Part shown: piece by piece, positions 1,053-13,681 of the stretch
Position numbering within the stretch: the first letter of the stretch is position 1
Layout: each line of letters starts with the position of its first letter
NCBI GenBank assembly: GCA_903881565.1
Contig: CAIRTR010000116.1
Span: forward strand, 1-39,729
Origin: Oligoflexia bacterium
GTDB taxonomy: Bacteria > Bdellovibrionota > UBA1018
DNA length: 39,729 nt
Direction: 5' to 3'
Position numbers and translations under genes: made by a program
Notes under the pieces: model-generated
Database searches by the model: none
Seen by the model: the letters and a program-made list of their open reading frames with translations, nothing else
What the model was told of the DNA's origin: nothing

Positions 1053-1637
1053 TTAGCCAACCGTGAGTGCGGGTAACAGAGTGGCGCGCTTAAAAGCATT
1101 CATATAAGCTTCCGAGACATCCACCGGAACTAGCTGATTATAGGGACCGGACGAAAGGTGTCCGTCTCCCGCGATTCCGCGAATGACCAGCGTCGCGGCC
1201 TCCCGGCCGTACAGCGAAGTATACGCTTTGAGCCACTGCTCCGTAAGCTCTCCGACCGTTTTTTCCAGTCGCGCTGCTTTCCATGCCTTACCCCACTCCA
1301 CACCACACAAAAATGTCTGAGGATAACAACTCCCGAAGGGACTTCCATCATGAGCTCGACCCCGGACGTCAAATTCGACCTTCTTTCGATATGACTCGAA
1401 ACTTTTGCGGTCAAACGAATGAACCGCGGCCTGAAAGACTGCCTCGAGGAATAAGATAACAAAAAACTCATCCGGATATGCGATGCCAGCCTCGCTTGCG
1501 CGCTTGCGAAGCTCCTTTGAACCACCACACTGACAAACACATATCGTCTTGTCAGCGTCCGAGAATGCAAAACTGTGGCAAAAAAAGGGGCCAAAGAGTA
1601 AGACCGTCGCTGTCGCTCCGAAGTGGCTCCGCCACAT
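1053..1637 (-). CDS. hypothetical protein (194 aa)
   Basis: Minus-strand frame with ATG at 1637. The body, from about residue 33 ('CVCQCGGSKELRKRA') to the end, looks like a real folded protein: it has a CxCxC cluster, a hydrophobic helix 'EFFVILFLEAVFQAAV', and a helical C-terminal half containing 'LTEQWLKAYTSLYG'. The first 25 residues are hydrophobic and could be a signal or membrane segment, or non-coding if the true start is internal. No family is recognised. The neighbours give no functional clue: remnant genes on one side, a divergent secreted-protein operon on the other. A nine-base direct repeat (gtggctccg on the + strand) flanks its start, at about 1623-1631 and 1649-1657. Confidence 0.45.
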   Translation of the reverse strand: MWRSHFGATATVLLFGPFFCHSFAFSDADKTICVCQCGGSKELRKRASEAGIAYPDEFFVILFLEAVFQAAVHSFDRKSFESYRKKVEFDVRGRAHDGSPFGSCYPQTFLCGVEWGKAWKAARLEKTVGELTEQWLKAYTSLYGREAATLVIRGIAGDGHLSSGPYNQLVPVDVSEAYMNAFKRATLLPALTVG

Positions 1638-1870: not shown

Positions 1871-1899
1871 TTGATGTTTAAGTCCTCCATTTGTAGAAT
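1871..1899 (+). promoter_or_regulatory. sigma70-type promoter for the secreted peptidase operon
   Basis: TTGATG at 1871-1876, a 17-base spacer and TAGAAT at 1894-1899: four to five matches to consensus in each box with ideal spacing. The expected transcription start is near 1906, just before the candidate ATG at 1911, so the leader would be only a few bases long. Confidence 0.6.
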
Positions 1900-1910
1900 A
1901 GACAGTGGCT

Positions 1911-3311
1911 ATGGTGAGATGTCGAAAGATGGTTGGAGCACTATGGATTATGCTTTTTTGTGCTGCAGCGCACGCGGACTGTTATGTCGTCATTGTAGGT
2001 GGCATTACGATGCATGAAAACGACATCCATGATTCAATTTGGAAGCATACCGTTAGCGAAGCGCAAAAGACGAAGTGCAAAGTTTTAGGGATCCCTAGCA
2101 ATACGCCCTACTCCGAGTTCCAGAAACGATTCAAAGATTTTACTAAAGAACTCGCACCCAAGGATTCGGTTCATATTGCATTTAGCGACCACGGCGCGCC
2201 CGTTAACGACGAAAACAAGCCACTTGAAGGGGTCATCCCGTTTCAAGTGATTACTGACAAGAGCGGCCATGAATTCAGCAATGGGCCCACTTATCGAGAG
2301 TTTGCTGAAACCCTAAAATCGTCGCTTCCTAAACAGGTGCACCTCACTTTTGTTTCCAATACTTGCTGGCCAAAATACAATCTCATGCAGCGCGAGCTCT
2401 TAAAGGGCTTCAATACGTGTGGCGCCGCTTCGACCCATGAGAAGGAGCTGTCTTACAATGTGGAGGGAGCAACACTTACGGAGGTGGGTTTTCGCCCCAA
2501 CTCTAAACGGCATGCGCCGAGCATTTGGAGTATGTATCGCGTCGCCTTTGATATCACGACGCGAGGGGATTTTACAAATGAGGGGGATCTCTCCTCAACA
2601 GCCTACGCAAGATCGGTTTTGACCACAAAGAAGATTCCTCAACGAGAGACAAATCTAGAGCAATTATCGACGCTCCTCCATGAAATGGACCATGTACCCA
2701 AGGAGGAACTGCTGCGAGATAATCGCCTAAACGAAAGTTCGCGGGTCGAGCAACTTCAATGCAAAACAGACGAATGGGAAACACTTCCGGGCGGGAAGCT
2801 CACGGTAGCCACTCAGCTCGAGTGTGATCGTATTGCACATTTTTCAACCCGAGGCATCGAAGGTTTTCAGAAGCTGCCAGCTGAATGGCAAAAAGAGGCC
2901 CAGATGTCTCTAAAGTGGATTCGCGCTCATTCTCCTGAATTGGAATATAAAATTGCTCTTTGGAAACAGATGGAGAAAAAGTATGCCGCCAAAACGAACC
3001 TGCTAGAGAGGGATCCCTCTCCGGATGAGTTATTTGGTCTTACAGACGATGACAGCCCCGAAAAATTGCCACAGAAGGAGCTAAAGAAGTATCGAGCTTA
3101 CGCAGCCATCCATAACGGAAACTGGGGGAAAATGTCTCGCGAAATGATGGATGAGCGACGACAGGCGCAAGCAGGTCTTGCTCCGTTTGTGGCTCAGTAT
3201 CGAAGACTTGAAATTGCGGAGACTTTGGCTAAATTTTACGCCCAGGCAAGCAAAGCTCAAGTTAACGAATATGAAAAAATCTTTGCCTGTGAGCATCAGG
3301 AGATTCGTTAA
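1911..3311 (+). CDS. secreted putative clan CD (caspase/legumain-like) cysteine peptidase
   Basis: 466 residues from ATG 1911. The N-terminus 'MVRCRKMVGALWIMLFCAAAHA' is a Sec signal with a basic n-region and an AHA|D cleavage site; starting at ATG 1929 would remove the positive charges, which is why 1911 is preferred (GTG 1905 is also possible). The mature N-terminus begins with a beta strand 'CYVVIVGG', followed by 'VHIAFSDHGAP' (His94) and 'VHLTFVSNTCWP' (Cys152), then 'FNTCGAASTHEKELSY'. A hydrophobic strand ending in His-Gly, a second hydrophobic strand ending in Cys, and a third 'AAS' strand are the hallmark layout of clan CD peptidases (legumain, caspase and gingipain fold). The remaining two thirds are mostly helical and charged, with no recognised domain. 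The next gene abuts the stop and also encodes an exported protein. The fold and catalytic pair are inferred from motif layout, not from a database match. Confidence 0.6.
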   Translation: MVRCRKMVGALWIMLFCAAAHADCYVVIVGGITMHENDIHDSIWKHTVSEAQKTKCKVLGIPSNTPYSEFQKRFKDFTKELAPKDSVHIAFSDHGAPVNDENKPLEGVIPFQVITDKSGHEFSNGPTYREFAETLKSSLPKQVHLTFVSNTCWPKYNLMQRELLKGFNTCGAASTHEKELSYNVEGATLTEVGFRPNSKRHAPSIWSMYRVAFDITTRGDFTNEGDLSSTAYARSVLTTKKIPQRETNLEQLSTLLHEMDHVPKEELLRDNRLNESSRVEQLQCKTDEWETLPGGKLTVATQLECDRIAHFSTRGIEGFQKLPAEWQKEAQMSLKWIRAHSPELEYKIALWKQMEKKYAAKTNLLERDPSPDELFGLTDDDSPEKLPQKELKKYRAYAAIHNGNWGKMSREMMDERRQAQAGLAPFVAQYRRLEIAETLAKFYAQASKAQVNEYEKIFACEHQEIR

Positions 3312-3743
3312 GTGCGAAGGGTATTTTTCTTGATTGCTTTTGCAACCTCCTCGCAATGGGCCCTTGCCGAAGGTCTTGCGTATTATTTTCCTAAAGCTGG
3401 ATTTTATCGCGTTGTAGGCACTTTTTCAGAATCGCCGAAGTCAGGAAGTGATTTTCGGATAAATATTTTCGAGGGCTCATCCGCAGCGTTCGCGGTGGAG
3501 ATTCATGGTGTTTCCATTGAAAGGCAAAGCTGGCTAAAAAATATCACTTCCGAGGTTTGCCTCGAAGTTGAAGAGCCGTGTATGTGGAACTGTCGGGCCA
3601 AGTTAAAAAAGGTCATTCGAAAAATCCCGTCTGCGCAACTTTATCAGCTTTCCGGCGCCAAGCATTTAGAGTGGCTGAAGCCCCTTGCGAGTGAATCAAA
3701 ATGCGTGGGCAAGGTGCTTGAGGTCGAGCAACGAAGGCTTTAG
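3312..3743 (+). CDS. small secreted protein coupled to the putative peptidase
   Basis: 143 residues starting at GTG 3312, the base immediately after the TAA of the upstream gene, so translation is probably coupled. The N-terminus 'MRRVFFLIAFATSSQWALA' followed by E is a clear Sec signal peptide with an ALA cleavage site. The mature part is about 120 residues with an early 'YYFPKAGFYRVVGTF' strand-rich segment and four cysteines in the second half ('VCLEVEEPCMWNCRAK' and 'SKCVG'), suggesting disulfides in the periplasm or outside. No family is recognised. Co-transcription with a putative exported cysteine peptidase makes a partner, chaperone or inhibitor role plausible, but this is inference from context only. 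Confidence 0.6.
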   Translation: MRRVFFLIAFATSSQWALAEGLAYYFPKAGFYRVVGTFSESPKSGSDFRINIFEGSSAAFAVEIHGVSIERQSWLKNITSEVCLEVEEPCMWNCRAKLKKVIRKIPSAQLYQLSGAKHLEWLKPLASESKCVGKVLEVEQRRL

Positions 3744-3857: not shown

Positions 3858-5594
3858 TCACAACTCCTCTGAAAACACCTTCTCCGTGATTTTCCAAAAC
3901 TTCTCCTGCTTGCGCGCGATCACAAATGCCGGCAGTCGAAACAGCTTCTGATACCGAATCACGTCTTTAGGCGTTCCGAATTCGAAGGCCAACTCCGGCC
4001 GTTTGAGATGTGACCTTAGAAAGTTAATATTGAACTTCTTGATCGACGAGGGATTGCTGAAAAAATGTGCCTCGCTAAAATACTGCGCATCAAAATCGTA
4101 GTACCGGATCTCAAGATAGGGGTTTGAGTTCTTATCGAAGCGCTCTTCGAAGGTGATGCGGTCCGGGGTAAGCACGTGCGAATTTTTAGACAGCTTAGCC
4201 TGTTTCAGTTTCGCATCCGCATCGACCAGGGCCGCAGCACACTTCTCGCAGGCCCGCGCGGTGACGTCATTCTCCGCCCCGCACGAGTGACACAGCTTGA
4301 GCCGAAACCGAAAACCACACGGCGTGATTTCAAGGGTCTTGGGATCCTGCGAAGCTCCTCTGCACTTTCTGCCAAAATGCTCCAGGACCTGGCCCTCGCT
4401 ATCCGCATACCCCCAAAAATCGTTTGCAAAGCCACACTGCGGACACGCCACCTGGACCGGCACTGTATCCTTCGCCGGCCGCTTGTCGCTGATTTCGGGG
4501 GCGTAAATGTCGTGACCCATTCCCGTGTAATCCAGGATGTAACATTCCTTCTTACCCTCCGAGAGCCTGAGTCCCCGTCCCACAATCTGCTGATAAAGAC
4601 TATTGGACTCCGTCGGCCGTAAAATCGCGATCACATCAACGTGGGGCGCATCAAAGCCCGTAGTCAGTACTGAAACATTCACTAGGTATTTGAACTTCTT
4701 TATTTTGAAATCCTGAATCGTTTGATCGCGTACACCTTGATCGGTATCACCCACGACCAATCGGCAATCTTCGGGGGGGAGATAGGATACAATCTCTTCG
4801 GCATGCCGAACGGAGGCAGCAAAAATCATCACCCCCTGCCGGTCGTAGCGCTGCGTGATGTCCATGACATTTTTGATGATCAGAGGAGTCAGACGCTTTT
4901 GAGTCTTTAGGATATCTTCGACTTCGGCAGCCGTGTACATACGGCCTTTTTCGCTTAGCTCTGAAAAATCATAGCTCGTAACCGGATTATCAACCTTCAC
5001 CGGAATCGTCAGATACTTGTTCTTGATCATGTACGAAAGCGGCAGTTCAAAAACGCATTGCTTAAAGAACCTGGGTTGCTCGGTCTTTAGTTCTCCCACT
5101 TGGGAGTATTCGTAGATCCAGCCCAGGCCCAATCGGTAAGGAGTCGCGGTTAATCCCAAGATGCAGATGCGGGGATTGCGGTCCCGCAATTTTTTCACTA
5201 CTTCCTGATATTGCGTAGCCCCCTCATCGGCCACCCGATGGCATTCGTCGATCACGAGTAAGGAGAAATCATCGAAGAACTCATCAACCGCACGCGCGAC
5301 TGATTGTACACTTCCAAAAATAGTCTTGTGACTCCAGTCTTTTTTACCTAAGCTTGCGGAAAAAATCCCAGCCGATAGTCCGAGACTGACGTACTTCTCG
5401 TAATTTTGCTCCACGAGTTCCTTGACGTGGGCAAGGACCAGAACGCGGCCTTTGGCCACGCGGGCAAGCTCCGCGATGACGAGACTCTTACCCGCTCCCG
5501 TCGGTAGCACGACGACTGCACAGTCGCGCTTTTTTTTGAAGTACCGAACGACATTGTCGACCGCCCTCTGCTGATAATCCCGAAGCTGGTACAT
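3858..5594 (-). CDS. radD: RadD-family superfamily 2 DNA repair helicase
   Basis: 578 residues from ATG 5594 ('[13 protein letters not shown]'), close to the 586 residues of E. coli RadD (YejH). A GTG at 5627 would add 11 residues that the family lacks. Visible helicase motifs are Walker A 'PTGAGKS' at about residues 31-37, 'DECH' at about 116-119, 'LGLTATP', and motif VI 'QQIVGRGLR'. The family-specific zinc-binding C-terminal region contains '[12 protein letters not shown]', 'FGRKC', 'CHSCGAEND' and 'CEKC'. Long runs match RadD ('SLVIAELAR', '[12 protein letters not shown]', '[11 protein letters not shown]'). RadD is a cytoplasmic ATPase that works with RecA and SSB in recombinational repair and postreplication gap processing. 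It is transcribed alone, divergently from the HPt-receiver gene. Confidence 0.95.
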
Positions 5595-5679
5595 AGCGAG
5601 AAGACATACCGCATTTAGTACGACCACTGGTATTTTTTTATCGATTGACGAGTGCTACGCCCCCCTTCAAGATAGGATC

Positions 5680-6849
5680 ATGACGTCTAAGTCCGAAACA
5701 GCCTACACTTATGAAGAAGAGCTCAAGCAAAGCGGCAAAGAGTATTTAGCCGGACTCAAGGATGTCCATGAAGACATCGAAAATGTGATTTTGGGACTTT
5801 CCAAACAGGGCGACGAGGCGGATGCGCTTCGCAGCATCACTCGCAAGATTCACTCAATCAAAGGCGCCGCGGGCTCCTATGGCTTCGACTTAATCAGTAC
5901 GGTTTGCCACAGAGTCGAGGACCAACTCAGTCTCTATTCCGGAAATCCGCAGGAGTATACGAGCAAGATTGATTTTCTCCTAAGCCAAACCGACTTTCTG
6001 AAACGAGCGATTCAAGCCTATTCTAGCGAAAATAGGGAGCAACTTGCCAATATCCGTGCTCAGCTTTCAGAATCAACCGCGGCGGAGACTCCGGGTGGAG
6101 CCAAGCCTGTACGAATTCTTGTGGTTGACGTATCGCGATGGATCGGCATGGCCCTCGCCTCTTCTCTTAAAAAATATCCCGTAGAGATCGCAATGTGCGC
6201 CAACGGCTATGCCGCTCTGGGCCGCCTGTTGAACGAACATTTTGACGTCCTCATCACCAGCAACGTGATTGAAACGATCGATGGTACGACACTCATTAGG
6301 TTGAATCAAGAACTGGCCACCGCAAACCCGCGTGCGCGCACGATCCTGTTGACCTCCAATATTCTGCCGGAACTGAAAAAAGCAGCTGATTATTGCATCG
6401 AGAAGGAAAAAGGCTTCGCCGAAAAAATAGTGAAACTATTGGAGACCGATCTCAAACTAAAGCCTGTACCCCAACAAATCAAAACCAGCGCCAGTCAGTA
6501 CAAAACCCTATTTCTTGTGGATGACTCTCCGGAAATTCATCTGCTGGTGAAAATGGGTCTGAAGGCGGCCCCCGAACTAAAAACGAGCTATTTTTTGGAT
6601 GGCAAGAGCGCCCTTGCCGCCTTTAAGAAAAACCCACCCGATCTTCTCCTTCTCGACTTGAACATGCCAGAATGGGACGGCCGACAAACCCTTCAAGAAT
6701 TCAGAAAAGCGGGATTTGCAGGTACCGCCATCTTTCTTACTGGCGACACCGAACCTAGCGAAGTGCAGAAACTGCTTAACTTTGGAGCACTCAAGGTTCT
6801 CCCAAAACCATTCTCACCCAAAAACCTCTGGAAAATGATCCTGTCTTAG
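5680..6849 (+). CDS. HPt - degenerate receiver - receiver phosphorelay protein
   Basis: 389 residues. Residues 10-125 form an HPt domain with the phosphoacceptor His58 in 'HSIKGAAGSYGF'. A first receiver-like domain spans about 144-258: it keeps Asp150, but the second acidic residue is Val151, and the position of the phosphorylated Asp is Thr193 ('FDVLITSN'), so it should not be phosphorylated. The second receiver (about 276-389) is intact: Asp281/Asp282, Asp326 in 'LLLLDLNMPEWDG', Thr354 and Lys376. It has no DNA-binding or enzymatic output, so it is a phosphorelay intermediate. The stop overlaps the convergent hybrid kinase gene by four bases (6846-6849); that kinase has a receiver but no HPt, so it is a natural partner. 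A weak promoter (TTGACG 5645-5650, AAGATA 5669-5674, 18-base spacer) lies just upstream, again leaving almost no leader. Confidence 0.88.
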   Translation: MTSKSETAYTYEEELKQSGKEYLAGLKDVHEDIENVILGLSKQGDEADALRSITRKIHSIKGAAGSYGFDLISTVCHRVEDQLSLYSGNPQEYTSKIDFLLSQTDFLKRAIQAYSSENREQLANIRAQLSESTAAETPGGAKPVRILVVDVSRWIGMALASSLKKYPVEIAMCANGYAALGRLLNEHFDVLITSNVIETIDGTTLIRLNQELATANPRARTILLTSNILPELKKAADYCIEKEKGFAEKIVKLLETDLKLKPVPQQIKTSASQYKTLFLVDDSPEIHLLVKMGLKAAPELKTSYFLDGKSALAAFKKNPPDLLLLDLNMPEWDGRQTLQEFRKAGFAGTAIFLTGDTEPSEVQKLLNFGALKVLPKPFSPKNLWKMILS

Positions 6850-9671
6850 GCCGCAGGGGCCGCAGGCGGACACATCTCAAGAATCAGTTTAATCAACTCC
6901 GCCCGGCGAATCGGTTTAGTGGCGTGCGCATTACAGCCTGCCGCACGCGTCTGAGCGCGATCCTCATCCAGCGCATTAGCCGTAAGGGCTACGATCGGTC
7001 TGGGTTGATGCTGATTCTCAGTCTCCCAGTTTCGAATCTTCTTGGTGGCCGTCAGGCCGTCCATCACGGGCATCTGGATGTCCATTAAAACCAAATGGAA
7101 TTGATGCTCCTGAAACACCTCAAAAGCTTGCAGCCCATCTTTGGCGAAAACCAATTCATAGGGATAGGACTTCAAATAGGCCTGCAACAAAATTCGGTTA
7201 TCTTCTGCATCATCGACGATCAACAACTTCAGCCGACGCGTGTCTGTCGGTAAGAGTGGCTTCTGGACCGGATTCGACGCAACTCGAGGTTCGCCTTTTA
7301 GCAAAGGAAGGGAAAAGAAGAATTCAGTGCCTCCCCCTTGGGTGGGACACGCTTTAATCACGCCACCCATTTGCTTCACGAGCTGGGAACTAATATGAAG
7401 CCCCAAACCACTGCCGCCATATTTACGCGTCACGGAGGTATCCAATTGATTGAATCGCTGAAACAGCGCCGAAAGCTTACCCTTGGGGATGCCAATCCCG
7501 GTATCAATCACAGAAAAGTCGATCACCTCACCTACCGTCTCTTGATGACGACGGGAGACCACTAGAGAGATCGAGCCCTCTTCGGTGAATTTTGCGGCAT
7601 TGTTCAGGACATTAATCAGGACTTGTTTTAGCCGTAAGGGATCAAGCACAATCCAAGGCGGAACATCCCCAACAAGACTTTGCCGATACTGCAGTCCCTT
7701 TTTAACAATTTTCGGCCCCACGATCGCCTGAACCTCAGACAGAAGATCACCCAAATGGATTGACTCGGGCTTTAGTGGCTGCGCCCCTGCTTCGATGGTC
7801 GAAACTTCAAGAATATTATTGATAAGCTCAAGCAGCGTTTCGCTCGATTTGTGAATCGAGTGGATTTGCTTTTGCTGATCTTCGTTAAGCGGCCCATCAT
7901 CGATGAGCTCGGTGAGTCCTATGATCGTATTGAGAGGCGTGCGAATCTCGTGGCTCATATTAGACAGAAACTCTCCCTTGGCCCGATTGGCCTCCTCAGC
8001 CGCAAATCGAGCGTTCTCTAGGCGATCCGTCAGTTCATGTTGAAGGGTACAATCACCAAACATCAACAAAAGATGATCAGTACCCTCCTGAGTAAAAATG
8101 GAAAACCAAAAATGTACCCAGGCATCTTTCCCAAAACTAGATCGAATTTTCTTCTCAATCCTTTGAGGCTTTCGCGTTTCAAACACTTCATCCGCAACCG
8201 CAGCAAGTCCTAACGTTCGCCAGGACTCCAAGCTTCTAAAGTTCTGGGCTAACACTTTTTCAACCGTTCCCCCGATGATCGAGGCTGAGGACTCATTCGC
8301 ATAAATGCACTGTCCCTCATTGCGATAAACCAGGATGCCAAAGGGCGACTGCGCCAGCACTCTCTCCTTAAAGATCCGAGTCTCACTCAAACCCATCTCT
8401 GCAGTCTTGCGATCCGTCACATCCAAAATAAAACCTGTTCGCAAATCAAAACCCTCGGCATCCTTTGTTCGGCGAATCGAATTGAGTCGAATCCATTTTT
8501 TTATCCCCGAAGGGGTCGTCAGTCGGATTTCAACGTCCAACATCTCCTGACTCTCAGAGGCAATCTGCCCAAGCGCCTTGAGCTTGACTCGGTCCTCAGG
8601 ATCAAGCATCTTGTAGAAAATGCCGATATCCTGCAGAAGGGCCTCAGGATCTACCTCCAGCAGATCTCGGCAACCTGGACTCAAATAAGTAAACCACCCC
8701 GCTCTTTGCGGCCGATAGACAAACTCATAAATCACACCCGGTACGGCTTTTAGAATGTTTTCATATCGAACTTTCGATTCGCGCATCTCCGCAATCCCAA
8801 CCGAGACAAACTGGCCCAACAACGTGACGCCGCAGATGAAAAAATCAAGTTCAAGCAATCGAGGGCGATCGACCCCCGCATAAGGCCCCAGGCCCGCATG
8901 AGCCGCAACGAGCAGGAGCAACGTCAAAACGACAGATCCAATACCCATGAGCAAAAGCCCGTAGCGAGCGGCGAACCAGACAAAAAAAGGGAAAAACACG
9001 ATGCACGAGGTAAAAAAATTAGGGATCAAGGGCGAAAAAAACAGACTCCAGGTGAAGAGGGAAAGCAAAATGTAACCGATTCCAAAATCTCCTGCTGATT
9101 TGGAACTGTTCCGCACTGAAACCAAACTGCAAATCAGAGGCACAAGAAGCTGTTGCCCCAAAAAGTTCCCCAACCACCAGGAAACCCAAGTATCAATGTA
9201 CTGGCCCCCCGTAATCAACCCTCCAAGCCGCAATACCCCGGTTCCCAAGGTCGCACTCAAGGGCTGAAGAACTAAAGTAATAAGGAGAAAAACTCCGGTT
9301 AGATCCCGAAGGGAACCAAAGCTCGGGCTCAATCGAAAGCGTCGGAAAATGAAGGCCCCAAGTACCGCTTCGCCACTATTGATCATCGCAATGGCAATCG
9401 CCACAGGCCACGGCAGGGCGCTGCTCAGCGCGAGCGCCAATTGACCCAAGAAAACGCCCGGCCAGATCCAAGGGCCCAAGAGAATTGCAGCCGCAAGACT
9501 TACGCCCTCTGAAAAGAACACGACACGGGTCACAATCCCCTCTGAAACTGAAAAATAGAAACTCAGTTTACCCAGCGCGAAATAAAGAAAAGCGAGCGCG
9601 AGAATCGCAGCTATTGTTTGCTTTGGACCCTGATTCGAAACCCCATTCTTATGCGGATCAGATGATGCCAT
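6846..9671 (-). CDS. MASE1 - PAS - PAS hybrid histidine kinase with C-terminal receiver
   Basis: 941 residues from ATG 9671. The longer frame from 9722 is rejected because a promoter (-10 at 9681-9686) ends nine bases before 9671. Residues about 17-300 are a multi-spanning MASE1-type sensor ('FYFSVSEGIVTRVVFFSEG', 'LLGPWIWPGVFLGQ'). Two PAS domains follow, at about 305-425 and 430-550. Next come the DHp with His574 in 'SNMSHEIRTPLN', the ATPase with 'NVLNNAAKFT', 'DTGIGIP' and 'GGSGLGLHI', and a receiver with Asp820/Asp821, Asp864 in 'LMDIQMPVMDG', Thr897 and Lys919. There is no HPt, so phosphate must pass to another protein. The convergent gene that overlaps its stop encodes one. Confidence 0.92.
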   Translation of the reverse strand: MASSDPHKNGVSNQGPKQTIAAILALAFLYFALGKLSFYFSVSEGIVTRVVFFSEGVSLAAAILLGPWIWPGVFLGQLALALSSALPWPVAIAIAMINSGEAVLGAFIFRRFRLSPSFGSLRDLTGVFLLITLVLQPLSATLGTGVLRLGGLITGGQYIDTWVSWWLGNFLGQQLLVPLICSLVSVRNSSKSAGDFGIGYILLSLFTWSLFFSPLIPNFFTSCIVFFPFFVWFAARYGLLLMGIGSVVLTLLLLVAAHAGLGPYAGVDRPRLLELDFFICGVTLLGQFVSVGIAEMRESKVRYENILKAVPGVIYEFVYRPQRAGWFTYLSPGCRDLLEVDPEALLQDIGIFYKMLDPEDRVKLKALGQIASESQEMLDVEIRLTTPSGIKKWIRLNSIRRTKDAEGFDLRTGFILDVTDRKTAEMGLSETRIFKERVLAQSPFGILVYRNEGQCIYANESSASIIGGTVEKVLAQNFRSLESWRTLGLAAVADEVFETRKPQRIEKKIRSSFGKDAWVHFWFSIFTQEGTDHLLLMFGDCTLQHELTDRLENARFAAEEANRAKGEFLSNMSHEIRTPLNTIIGLTELIDDGPLNEDQQKQIHSIHKSSETLLELINNILEVSTIEAGAQPLKPESIHLGDLLSEVQAIVGPKIVKKGLQYRQSLVGDVPPWIVLDPLRLKQVLINVLNNAAKFTEEGSISLVVSRRHQETVGEVIDFSVIDTGIGIPKGKLSALFQRFNQLDTSVTRKYGGSGLGLHISSQLVKQMGGVIKACPTQGGGTEFFFSLPLLKGEPRVASNPVQKPLLPTDTRRLKLLIVDDAEDNRILLQAYLKSYPYELVFAKDGLQAFEVFQEHQFHLVLMDIQMPVMDGLTATKKIRNWETENQHQPRPIVALTANALDEDRAQTRAAGCNAHATKPIRRAELIKLILEMCPPAAPAA

Positions 9672-9680
9672 ATGAAGATC

Positions 9681-9709
9681 ATTATCCCAGACATAATATC
9701 GGCGGGCAA
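9681..9709 (-). promoter_or_regulatory. promoter of the MASE1 hybrid kinase
   Basis: Read on the minus strand: TTGCCC (9709-9704), a 17-base spacer, GATAAT (9686-9681), then nine bases to ATG 9671. The predicted transcript would begin two or three bases before the start codon. No ribosome binding site is seen at a workable distance. This promoter sets the start chosen for the kinase. Confidence 0.55.
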
Positions 9710-9745
9710 CCGGTGGAAACACTTATGGAGATCCCACCACACTTG

Positions 9746-9781
9746 CTGCCGAATCATGTTAGAAGCCACATGATTCGGCAG
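9746..9781. repeat. perfect 14-bp inverted repeat in a divergent intergenic region
   Basis: Left arm ctgccgaatcatgt at 9746-9759, an 8-base loop, and a perfect complementary right arm at 9768-9781. It lies between the divergent starts of the hybrid kinase (9671) and the J-domain-like gene (9878). No T-run follows on either strand, so it is not a typical terminator. It could be an operator for a dimeric regulator or an RNA hairpin element. Ten bases (tcaatgtctt) are also directly repeated at 9790-9799 and 9815-9824. Confidence 0.8.
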
Positions 9782-9877
9782 ACACGACGTCAATGTCTTG
9801 ACTGGCGATGTTTCTCAATGTCTTTCCAAATATTTATTCCCTGTCCAGTCGGAGGGTTTAAGTTAGACTGAATACCG

Positions 9878-10807
9878 ATGCCCCGACTCCCTGTACCCGT
9901 TGAGCTTGAGGTCTTATTAAAGCGGCTGACGCTTGAAGAAGCGCAAATATCTCTAGCCCTGGCACGCCTCGAGGAGGAACTAAGGCAGTTTGAAGATTTT
10001 GTTCGTCCGGCTTATGATCACTGGATCCGAATTGAACTCGGTCCGCGCCTGTTCACGCTCGAACTGATCTTTGAGAAAATTCGTGAGCGGCAAATACTGG
10101 CGAGACGAATTATCGAACTTCAGCAGTCTGGAGAATTCACACCCCGCGAAGCTCACTATTTAGCCCTAGGGCATGACTCTGACTCAGCCGAAGTCACCGC
10201 ACGACGCCGAGCGAAGCTCGAAACAAAAAGAACGGCCAGGCGTGAAGAAAAAAAGCGGGCGAAAGACGAGCGAAAGAATCTCAGCCCTAGTATTTTCAAA
10301 GGTATTTTCGAAAATGACAAAACCCAAATGAACCCTCGGCGGCGGCTTATTTCCCTCTACCGAATCTTGGCGCGGCAGCTGCATCCTGACTCTCCTCTGG
10401 CCTTAAAGACCCTCCCCAACCCGCGCCTATTGAAGCTCTGGCATGAAGTTCAATCGGCCTATCACTCGGCTAACTATGAACGTCTCGTGGCAATCGCGGC
10501 TTGGCTAGGGGGAAATTCTCCCACTCCCTTTGCGAACGCCCTGGGGCTCTCGGAGCGATTTGAGCGAATCCGGAGTATGGAGCGATCCTGCTTTCGCCTG
10601 AAAAAACAACTCTCCGAACTTGGCACGCATCCGGGTTGGAATTTTCTGGCCGCCAACGCCCCTTTGAAACGGAAACTTCTCCAAAAAGCCGCACACGACC
10701 TTGAAGCCGAAACAGCCCGGGCCCAACAGGCCTTGGAATCTCTAAAAGATTTTTTCAAAACCATCGGCTCTCCCAAAGCTCCCAAATTGCAGGGTCGCAA
10801 AAGGTGA
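9878..10807 (+). CDS. J-domain-like protein (DnaJ-related co-chaperone)
   Basis: 309 residues from ATG 9878. The N-terminal 90 residues are helical ('LTLEEAQISLALARLEEELRQ'). A very basic, charged linker follows at about 107-135 ('KRTARREEKKRAKDERKN'). Residues about 153-215 form a J-domain-like segment: 'RRLISLYRILARQLHPDS' with the HPD tripeptide at 169-171, then 'LLKLWHEVQSAYHSANYERL'. This is the arrangement seen in the DnaJ-like proteins of proteobacteria in which the J-like fold is internal. The C-terminus is a predicted coiled coil. HPD would stimulate a DnaK-type ATPase; the client is unknown. A possible promoter is CTGTCC 9841-9846 (poor) with TAGACT 9864-9869, leaving eight bases before the ATG. 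A GGAGGG at 9851-9856 is too far upstream to serve as the ribosome binding site. Confidence 0.75.
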   Translation: MPRLPVPVELEVLLKRLTLEEAQISLALARLEEELRQFEDFVRPAYDHWIRIELGPRLFTLELIFEKIRERQILARRIIELQQSGEFTPREAHYLALGHDSDSAEVTARRRAKLETKRTARREEKKRAKDERKNLSPSIFKGIFENDKTQMNPRRRLISLYRILARQLHPDSPLALKTLPNPRLLKLWHEVQSAYHSANYERLVAIAAWLGGNSPTPFANALGLSERFERIRSMERSCFRLKKQLSELGTHPGWNFLAANAPLKRKLLQKAAHDLEAETARAQQALESLKDFFKTIGSPKAPKLQGRKR

Positions 10808-11046
10808 TCATCAAGCCAGAGTTCAAATTTTAGCTACCCCAGCACAACTTCCCTCATCTCCGGCATTAGCAATTTGGGTTCTGCCGTCAGGGATTTTCTA
10901 CACACTTTCGGGAGTGCGAAAGGATACCACTGCTTGGAAATCAGTAAATTCCTCAGGTCGCCCCTTTGGAGTGCCCCCCTCACTTCTCAAAAAAGCCGCT
11001 ATTTTAGGGAGAGTACTTGAAGACTCCCAACTCCCCACCCCATTTT

Positions 11047-11074
11047 TTGACAGTGGTACGAATTCTGCTATGGT
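11047..11074 (+). promoter_or_regulatory. promoter of the lipoprotein metalloprotease
   Basis: A perfect TTGACA at 11047-11052, a 16-base spacer and TATGGT at 11069-11074. The expected start of transcription is near 11081, three bases before ATG 11084, predicting a leaderless or nearly leaderless mRNA. The 240 bases upstream, back to 10808, show no gene. Confidence 0.7.
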
Positions 11075-11083
11075 CGGGCCCAT

Positions 11084-13681
11084 ATGAACCGAACTTATAC
11101 GCCCTCAGTTTCCCCACTTGTTTTGCTCTGCCTGATCGTCTCCTTTTTGAATTCAGCTTGCTCCCCAAGAACGCTCGATAAAAGCGCGACCCCACAGGCA
11201 CCCATTGTTCGCAATTTGGCAGTCAAAGAAATCGACTCTTTGATGCCTTCCGTAAACCCTGAGGCGTCCACCACTCAATCGGTCTCGGTCTCGGTCACCG
11301 TAGAAAAAGATGCGATCATGGCGCAAGAATTCGTTTACGGCGCCGATCTCCAATACTCTTCGTTCTACGATGCGGACATGTCGCTCTATAACCAAAGTCT
11401 GGCGATTGGACATATTCCTGCACGTTTTAGAATTGCAGGCGATGAGCTCCAATTGGTTGCGGATAATAAGCGCCTCTATCCAAGTGAAGTGAACCACCCC
11501 GAAGTCTTGATCTCGCGCTTCAAGATTTTGGCGCAAACCGATAAGACCCTCACGCTCTCGTCCGCAAACTCAGGAGCCATGCTCAGCGATATATTTGAAG
11601 GCTCCCACACCGACACGCATGGGGGATTGCTTAATCCTGCTGGAAAACCCCTTCGCGACCAATGGGTGCGATCCTTCGAATTTGTGGCTAATGGTAACTA
11701 CATTCTGCAACAGACGAGCATTATCTTAGACGATGAACATGGCACGGTCGCCGAATTCATGGAATCCATTTTCCCCCGCACCACCCTCACCCCAGGCGAA
11801 AGTTTTGCCAAAACCGTCATGGATCCGGAAAATCCAAAAGGCGGTGATGAGGCCGTATTTGAAAAATACCGATACTTAGCGGGGGAAAATATTTTTGAGG
11901 GCGAAAAGAAACTCGCCTATGCGCAACACTATGACATTTCGAAAACCGCTCGAAATCCAGAAGGCACCATCGATTGGTATGCGACTCGCAACATTCCGGA
12001 TGAGGCTCTAGAACCTGTCAAAACGGCCATCGAAGGATGGAATCGCTACTTCGCAAAGCAAAAAGGTGTCGAGCGGGATGTCGTACTTTTCAAGGGCCGC
12101 TTACCTGAAGGCATTCACTTAGGCGACCCTCGCTTTAATGTGATCAATTGGGATTCGCGCCTTGTGGCCGGCGCTGCTTACGAAAGCCAGGCCAGCGATC
12201 CGCAAACTGGAAAGCAAAGCCATAGCCTGATTTACATGCCTGCGGCGTGGCTGCAAATTGGGTACGATTATTGGAGCAATGGCCAGTACTACGAAAACCA
12301 CGCGCAAAGTGTCGCGCCCGCGGCACTTGTGGGTCACGGCGTGGCACGCACGGCGCGCCTAGCTTGTATAAGCGATATGCGCGAGGTCGCTGAAACCGCT
12401 GTTTCGGGCCGTTTATCTCAAGATGAAGTCAAAGAATTTGGCGCGCGTCTTCTGCGGGGCACTCTTTTTCACGAAGTGGGGCACGCCCTGGGACTAGCGC
12501 ATAACTTCAAGGGGTCCCTCTCTTTTGATCGCTCAAAAGCTGGCTCCATTTTCTCGACCTCCATCATGGATTACAATGATTACGAAATCGAGCGTGGCGC
12601 TTTTCCCGATCTTCACTCAGCCGAAGGTCCAGAGCTGGAGTATGATCGACAGATCTTAAGCGCGATTTACAATAAGGGCGCGGATGTTTCGGACAAAGAC
12701 CCAAGCGTTCCCGTCTGTAACGACGCAGAAGCGGATAAAGAAGAAGAGGGCGTTGATCCTTTGTGCCTCCGATATGACCTTGAGAGCGACCCTACCCTTT
12801 CCACGCTTACCGCGTTTGATCGCATCGAGCTACAATCCAAAACAGGCGACGTCACGCTCGCCCAAGCGCTGCAACGTGTGCCCACATTGGTGGTCACCCT
12901 AGAAGCCTTGGCGGCAGTGAAGACCAAAGAAGATCTCAGTACACTCACTTCAAAACTCGGCGCGAGTTTAAAAGGCGCGATGAAATTCTCGATCCTCTCC
13001 GGAAAAGCCTCCGTTTCCCGCACGGTTCGCACGAATACAAAATCCCTTCTTGAATTCGAAGACGACATTTTGCCAACGGGCTATAATGCGGTTGAAATGC
13101 GGGACCGCGCCTTTAAGGGCGTTCTGAAAGCCTTGGCGCTAAGCGCTCTTCCGGATGCAGTAATAGCGGGACTCACGATTGCAGAAAAAACCGTTTCCGA
13201 CTTAATCGCCCTCACACCCTACATGCAAGCCCTGTCCATTGATGATCGCAATAAGACGATTGGGGAAACAATTGCGTCTCTTCACAAAACGGTCTTGGGT
13301 TTTGAAAAAGATGAAACCGGTGGGCTCCCTAAGCTACGCGCTGCGGTTTTGGCCACGCTCGCCCGGCACACCGATGTTCCCTACGTCTTTGGAAAAACCG
13401 AAGGCGGCGAAACACTTCTTGATATTGAAGCCTCACTTGTTGGAATCCTGGGCGACGTCGTCGCGGCTTCGGGCGATGCAAATGCATTAAGAACCGATAG
13501 CGAGCGTATCGCTGCTGCTAAAGCACTGGCAACCTACTCCGGACGTCTGCAAGGCGATGATGCCTTAAAAGCGGCTCAAGACGCGCTTCGTAAGCAGCGA
13601 GCCAGTGCACGGGACAATAAATCGCGCGAGCGAATTGAGCTGATTCTAGCGGGGCTTAATCCGAGTGCGACGGAGAATTAA
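11084..13681 (+). CDS. lipoprotein zinc-dependent metalloprotease (metzincin-like)
   Basis: 865 residues. The N-terminal hydrophobic stretch ends in 'FLNSAC', a lipobox with Cys26, so the protein should be lipid-anchored in the envelope. The catalytic motif HEVGHALGLAH has zinc ligands His463, His467 and His473 and the general base Glu464. A downstream 'SIMDYND' is a good Met-turn, so the overall arrangement is metzincin-like. The N-terminal half has the strand-rich layout of the large bacterial 'zinc-dependent metalloprotease' families (DUF5117/DUF4953-type), and 'EGPELEYDRQILSAIY' after the Met-turn fits these. The C-terminal 300 residues are helical and repetitive in character. It is a single-gene unit with its own promoter. 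Substrate and exact family are unknown; envelope remodelling or degradation of foreign protein are both possible. Confidence 0.85.
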   Translation: MNRTYTPSVSPLVLLCLIVSFLNSACSPRTLDKSATPQAPIVRNLAVKEIDSLMPSVNPEASTTQSVSVSVTVEKDAIMAQEFVYGADLQYSSFYDADMSLYNQSLAIGHIPARFRIAGDELQLVADNKRLYPSEVNHPEVLISRFKILAQTDKTLTLSSANSGAMLSDIFEGSHTDTHGGLLNPAGKPLRDQWVRSFEFVANGNYILQQTSIILDDEHGTVAEFMESIFPRTTLTPGESFAKTVMDPENPKGGDEAVFEKYRYLAGENIFEGEKKLAYAQHYDISKTARNPEGTIDWYATRNIPDEALEPVKTAIEGWNRYFAKQKGVERDVVLFKGRLPEGIHLGDPRFNVINWDSRLVAGAAYESQASDPQTGKQSHSLIYMPAAWLQIGYDYWSNGQYYENHAQSVAPAALVGHGVARTARLACISDMREVAETAVSGRLSQDEVKEFGARLLRGTLFHEVGHALGLAHNFKGSLSFDRSKAGSIFSTSIMDYNDYEIERGAFPDLHSAEGPELEYDRQILSAIYNKGADVSDKDPSVPVCNDAEADKEEEGVDPLCLRYDLESDPTLSTLTAFDRIELQSKTGDVTLAQALQRVPTLVVTLEALAAVKTKEDLSTLTSKLGASLKGAMKFSILSGKASVSRTVRTNTKSLLEFEDDILPTGYNAVEMRDRAFKGVLKALALSALPDAVIAGLTIAEKTVSDLIALTPYMQALSIDDRNKTIGETIASLHKTVLGFEKDETGGLPKLRAAVLATLARHTDVPYVFGKTEGGETLLDIEASLVGILGDVVAASGDANALRTDSERIAAAKALATYSGRLQGDDALKAAQDALRKQRASARDNKSRERIELILAGLNPSATEN

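Follow-up and report, generated by a model that had tools for sequence, protein, structure and literature searches.

An exported relative of caspases and legumain is paired with a small exported partner in an apparently undescribed two-protein system of Bdellovibrionota

In eukaryotes, peptidases of clan CD are known from apoptosis, pyroptosis and legumain biology, and the clan also includes ligases and transamidases (legumain, GPI8 and the asparaginyl ligases); its bacterial relatives are mostly uncharacterised. Cysteine proteases whose genes lie within a few bases of a gene for a small cognate protein are known from another fold, the papain-like fold of clan CA, in staphopain-staphostatin and SpeB-Spi, where staphostatins and Spi act in the cytoplasm. 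A 2012 survey of prokaryotic caspase homologues does not name Bdellovibrio in its main text (PMC3501461). Our literature searches on Bdellovibrio with caspase-like, legumain or peptidase C13, on orthocaspase with legumain and on bacterial legumain found nothing relevant (for Bdellovibrio and caspase, among the papers listed and as judged by title). In Bacteroides, C10 proteases are accompanied by small exported beta-rich staphostatin-like proteins of 116–138 residues (Bfi/Bti), whose genes lie only a few bases away on either side (PMC3462683).

The locus described here shares features with each of these systems. Like legumain and Peptidase_C13 proteins, the larger product, P0001, combines a predicted caspase-like core and an ordered His-Cys dyad with export and a helical region after the catalytic domain; it differs in that its extension ends in a conserved cysteine, that a small partner gene is coupled to it and that it lacks a C13 match. 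Metacaspases and orthocaspases (C14; AtMC4, 6w8s, and GSU0716, 3bij) are the PDB entries that the family profile matches best by sequence, with a coincident catalytic Cys column, whereas the P0001 family is exported, has an all-helical C-terminal half and comes with a partner. By analogy, an exported peptidase with a coupled, co-diverging partner in either gene order matches the Bacteroides C10/staphostatin-like pairs, despite the unrelated fold. Our main reading, to which we assign a probability of roughly 0.55, is that the locus encodes an exported clan CD-type peptidase with a clamped helical extension and a cognate partner that restrains it.

Within the window (the whole stretch of DNA analysed, 39,729 nucleotides), the locus occupies positions 1871–3743 and includes 40 bases upstream of gene 1, with one weak sigma-70-like match at 1871–1899. 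Gene 1 (1911–3311, plus strand, as are all features below unless marked) runs from an ATG at 1911 to a TAA at 3309–3311 and encodes the 466 residues of P0001. Residues 1–22 (1911–1976) read as a Sec-type signal sequence, MVRCRKMVGALWIMLFCAAAHA/DC (cleavage AHA/DC), and a hydrophobic N-terminal window is present in 80 of 83 full-length peptidase homologues. Gene 2 (3312–3743) starts with a GTG at 3312, the base directly after the gene 1 stop, and encodes P0002, a protein of 143 residues with a signal sequence of its own (residues 1–19, 3312–3368, VRRVFFLIAFATSSQWALA/E) and four cysteines, C83, C90, C94 and C131. An AGGAG at 3298–3302, which falls within the final codons of gene 1, 9 nt ahead of the GTG, is the likely ribosome-binding site of gene 2. 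Gene 2 would be translated coupled to gene 1, and its product would be exported by the same route. The first-pass annotation had reported a 466-residue product with a signal peptide, an 'SDHG' (His94), an 'SNTC' (Cys152) and a following 'AAS' strand, together with a second four-cysteine signal-peptide protein starting on the next base; all of these were seen again here.

Because the flanking long ORFs, 1053–1637 (minus) and 3858–5627 (minus), lie on the opposite strand, genes 1 and 2 form a two-gene unit. The first of these is a divergent ORF of 194 residues with a signal-like start, several cysteines and no Pfam match. By eye, 3858–5627 (minus) encodes a DEAD/DEAH-type helicase, 5680–6849 (plus) an Hpt and receiver protein and 6846–9722 (minus) a hybrid sensor histidine kinase. 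PADLOC returned no match, so an anti-phage role finds no support.

Alone, P0001 gave no usable match in Pfam, NCBIfam or the PDB, and direct searches gave none in 58 relatives of the same class, plasmids, phages or genome_contigs. A Kelch_1 candidate at residues 273–293 was rejected: it scored 19.1 bits against a cutoff of 20.1 and is a lone 21-residue stretch in a low-confidence part of the model. A search of its own genome at a looser threshold found a weak match (C101 8332–9660, E 0.0018), and the end of this paralogue is overlapped by a gene for a small exported partner of its own. In pairwise BLAST of the two pairs, the peptidases matched at E 9e-7 and the partners at E 8e-7. The whole family was reached via this paralogue, which as a query identified relatives in 9 of the 58 genomes of the class. 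A profile built from 11 members extended this to 23 of the 58 (E <= 0.01) and to at least 72 of 369 phylum genomes (E <= 1e-4, few candidates per genome scored). Profile searches covered the phylum genomes, many of them fragmented drafts, and the PDB; a search of viral_contigs and a plasmid search with the C101 paralogue gave no match. On sequence grounds, the peptidase homologues form a phylum-wide family in Bdellovibrionota/Oligoflexia.

To guard against profile drift, a profile of 78 relatives lacking the P0001 subfamily was run against P0001, the other ORFs of the window and 2000 shuffles of P0001. It found P0001 at E 2.5e-15 with His94, Cys152, Cys170 and Cys460 aligned, and matched no shuffle; hhalign of the subfamily against the remaining family gave 98.6%. 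The subfamily comprises P0001, L060, L064 and L069–L072, most of which have Trp after the catalytic Cys. Elsewhere in the family, a second large clade (e.g. L104, L127 and L130) ends in NPC[RK][DN]FxL instead of CE and has partners with a 'PDPL' motif. A D-x-[DN]-x-[DN]-G loop resembling an EF-hand follows Cys170 in 12 of the 83 full-length homologues (L010, L048 and L056 among them); it possibly binds calcium and is missing in P0001. The peptidase of L007 (G011:C354:7226-10531) is split into overlapping frames, 861–1259 and 1186–2643, probably by a frameshift or an assembly error.

The two residues proposed as catalytic are invariant. Among 94 aligned non-redundant homologues, His94 ('FSDHG', codon 2190–2192) and Cys152 ('SNTC', codon 2364–2366) are each conserved in 94, Gly95 in 93 and Cys170 in 91. 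Because both residues are invariant in these homologues and the gene adjacency recurs across the phylum, neither the motifs nor the adjacency can be put down to chance. When a profile of 46 family members was compared with the PDB, it matched metacaspase-4 (1.3e-12), GSU0716 (3.1e-8), MCA2 (1.1e-6) and legumain (1.6e-6), with several legumains at E about 1e-6. In the printed alignment the family Cys column coincides with the metacaspase-4 position that holds the catalytic Cys in 6w8s and Ala in 6w8r, and the His column aligns to the metacaspase-4 HG motif.

Conservation of His94 and Cys152 and a caspase-like fold had been set beforehand as the tests of the peptidase proposal; the alignment upholds the first, and the structure prediction bears out the second. 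An AF2 model of P0001 built with a 46-sequence alignment reached a pLDDT of 80.8 and a pTM of 0.81, while single-sequence prediction was uninformative (pLDDT 40.7). The catalytic domain spans about residues 23–240 (1977–2630). Its elements run E24-29, H39-53, E57-60, H67-78 and E86-91, followed by His94 and a hairpin, then H128-138, E144-149 followed by Cys152, H156-163 and E168-173; long helices occupy residues 296–462. The top PDB matches in Foldseek were legumain (first), CED-3, caspases (caspase-4) and metacaspase-9, at probability 1.00 and target TM of about 0.37–0.53. As modelled, P0001 shares the caspase-like fold, distantly.

Profile comparison against clan CD and Pfam, also proposed at the outset, upheld the clan and not the Pfam families for P0001 itself. 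At E <= 0.1, Peptidase_C13 matched 11 of 46 family members and C14 matched 4 of 46. The relative L031 passes the gathering score of Peptidase_C13 (PF01650; 32.2 against 22.8 bits), the only singly tested relative to do so, with two other homologues below the cutoff. P0001 does not reach the C13 gathering score and has no match there or to C14 (PF00656), for which the best homologue scored 16.0 against 21.4 bits (best E 0.0098). The order of the dyad is that of clan CD, His then Cys, each after a hydrophobic strand and the His followed by Gly. Fold, dyad and sequence relationship together support the assignment of P0001 to MEROPS clan CD (caspase-hemoglobinase fold) as a predicted peptidase. 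Gene 1 would therefore, on this assignment, encode an exported cysteine peptidase with a caspase-like core and with His94 and Cys152 as its catalytic residues.

P0001 is a divergent member, with 12–18% identity to most of the family. It carries K at position 155, where 89 of 94 relatives have Gly; because this Gly is replaced and Trp follows the catalytic Cys, its substrate site may differ from that of its relatives. The same divergence could mean that the subfamily has lost peptidase activity and now serves as a binding protein, CWPKY standing in place of the family C[FYH][SG]G. We consider this very improbable: P0001 keeps His94, Gly95, Cys152 and Cys170, and the other subfamily members keep the HG and the Cys.

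The second half of P0001 is a C-terminal alpha-helical extension (about residues 248–462, 2652–3296). AF2 places helices here and no Pfam match exceeds its cutoff, the last ~200 residues having no library match at all. It ends in a conserved 'CE' tail, whose Cys460 (codon 3288–3290) is conserved in 35 of 35 sequences where aligned and in at least 90% in alignment A6. Cys170 (codon 2418–2420, 'CGAAS') opens the strand that follows the catalytic Cys. Both Cys170 and the C-terminal Cys are present in 80 of 83 full-length members and both are missing in 2, and this co-occurrence suggests a Cys170-Cys460 disulfide. Such a bond would probably clamp the extension onto the core, in the manner of a latent prodomain.

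P0002, like P0001, was recognised by none of the tools when searched by itself, but the partners are likewise recognisable as a family. Twenty aligned partners share a signal sequence, a [C]GxYxxxG motif, a 'GT.SE' stretch and a C-terminal Cys; P0002 is without their usual N-terminal Cys. A partner profile built without the subfamily of P0002 recovered it at E 4.6e-7 among 2000 shuffles, and hhalign gave a probability of 97.3%. The strand pattern suggests an OB-like barrel. No convincing Pfam or PDB family match was found for the partners, and no inhibitor family, including staphostatin and Spi, is among the Pfam matches of the 20. By these comparisons the partner is assigned to a new family of small proteins.

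A survey of other genomes had been suggested to see whether the two genes stay adjacent, and they do. The partner profile gave 86 matches in 60 of 369 genomes. Forty of these lie within 2.2 kb of an independently found peptidase match, always on the same strand (40/40). From the remaining 46 we fetched 40, and a peptidase gene adjoins 36 of them; these 36 come from a profile that had been iterated on those very loci, which makes their E-values self-trained, and are independently supported by the invariant His and Cys, signal-like N-termini and the C-terminal Cys. Altogether a peptidase gene adjoins 76 of the 80 partner loci examined, on the same strand, up- or downstream and usually overlapping. 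The other four comprise an intact partner gene next to a fragmented peptidase gene (L117, G037:C1:87100-92400), a partner at a contig end with a peptidase-like 'CE' tail upstream (L134), and two partners with no recognisable peptidase alongside (L110:2474-2929 and L120:1040-1480).

Counted from the peptidase side, 77 of the 104 peptidases in the full set of loci adjoin a partner gene, always on their own strand, which lies downstream in 58 cases and upstream in 19; this count contains a few duplicate loci and 40 chosen by partner. Since one pair in four has the reverse gene order and overlaps of 4–40 nt are typical, selection acts on the linkage itself. Among peptidase-first loci only, a partner was recognised at about 24 of 51. 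Two relatives of P0001, L064 and L069, were dropped as partnerless loci when the partner profile showed a partner directly upstream.

The two families also diverge together. Over 65 pairs, peptidase and partner distances gave a Mantel correlation of r 0.80 (permutation maximum 0.29), a value to which shared species history contributes. The genome of the window holds three further pairs, G000:C101:8332-10043 (L002), G000:C251:4464-6457 (L013) and G000:C269 near 9456-11842 (L142), which belong to different subfamilies; at C269 the partner gene precedes the peptidase gene. All four same-genome pairs thus fall in separate subfamilies, and where best resolved the partners follow their peptidases, L002 with L004 and L045, and L013 with L040 and L023. 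Because of the 76/80 adjacency and the correlated divergence, we regard genes 1 and 2 as a well-supported cognate pair, as judged from genome comparison. The suggestion that they make up a two-gene system of no obvious known family has largely held up, with the pairing recurring phylum-wide. An exported relative of caspases and legumain with its small partner is a real and apparently undescribed two-protein system.

In the leading reading, which we rate slightly above even odds, the partner is an inhibitor of the predicted peptidase: P0002 would most likely bind the peptidase and hold it in check within the cell envelope until it is released or acts. In favour of this reading, a partner hardly ever occurs by itself, but the peptidase can. 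That no partner can be recognised at about half of the peptidase-first loci sits uneasily with an obligate inhibitor, though short diverged partners are easily missed. The same loci bear on the converse idea, in which the partner acts positively, as a foldase or stabiliser in the periplasm or as an activating subunit, and the peptidase needs it to fold or work. Dedicated foldases, too, are exported, tightly coupled and co-diverging with their clients, and few partners (2 to 4 of 80 loci) occur without a peptidase. However, the partnerless peptidases keep their catalytic residues intact, and the partner is small and beta-rich by sequence pattern, closer to known operon-encoded inhibitors, so that we consider a positive role rather unlikely.

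It is less probable still that the enzyme is a transpeptidase or processing enzyme acting on the partner or on surface proteins, with the partner serving as substrate, anchor or delivery module. The ligases and transamidases within clan CD make this chemistry conceivable, and most partners end in a conserved tail with a Cys. Yet no common cleavage motif was seen in the partners, P0002 itself lacks the N-terminal Cys, and no genes for surface sorting were noticed next to the pairs.

Returning to the inhibitor reading, we suggest tentatively, and as a possibility that falls short of even odds, that the family is doubly latent, held by a disulfide-clamped helical extension and, in addition, by a dedicated inhibitor from the neighbouring gene, an exported protein of a new family, in multiple copies and throughout Bdellovibrionota. 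If true, this would be, to our knowledge, the first family of inhibitors genetically paired with clan CD peptidases in bacteria. An exported branch of these enzymes, spread across a phylum that includes predatory bacteria and accompanied by a co-diverging partner of an unlisted family, offers a testable protease-regulator pair, and the partner family may represent a new class of caspase- or legumain-type inhibitors. A doubly latent peptidase of this kind would possibly serve predation or envelope remodelling.
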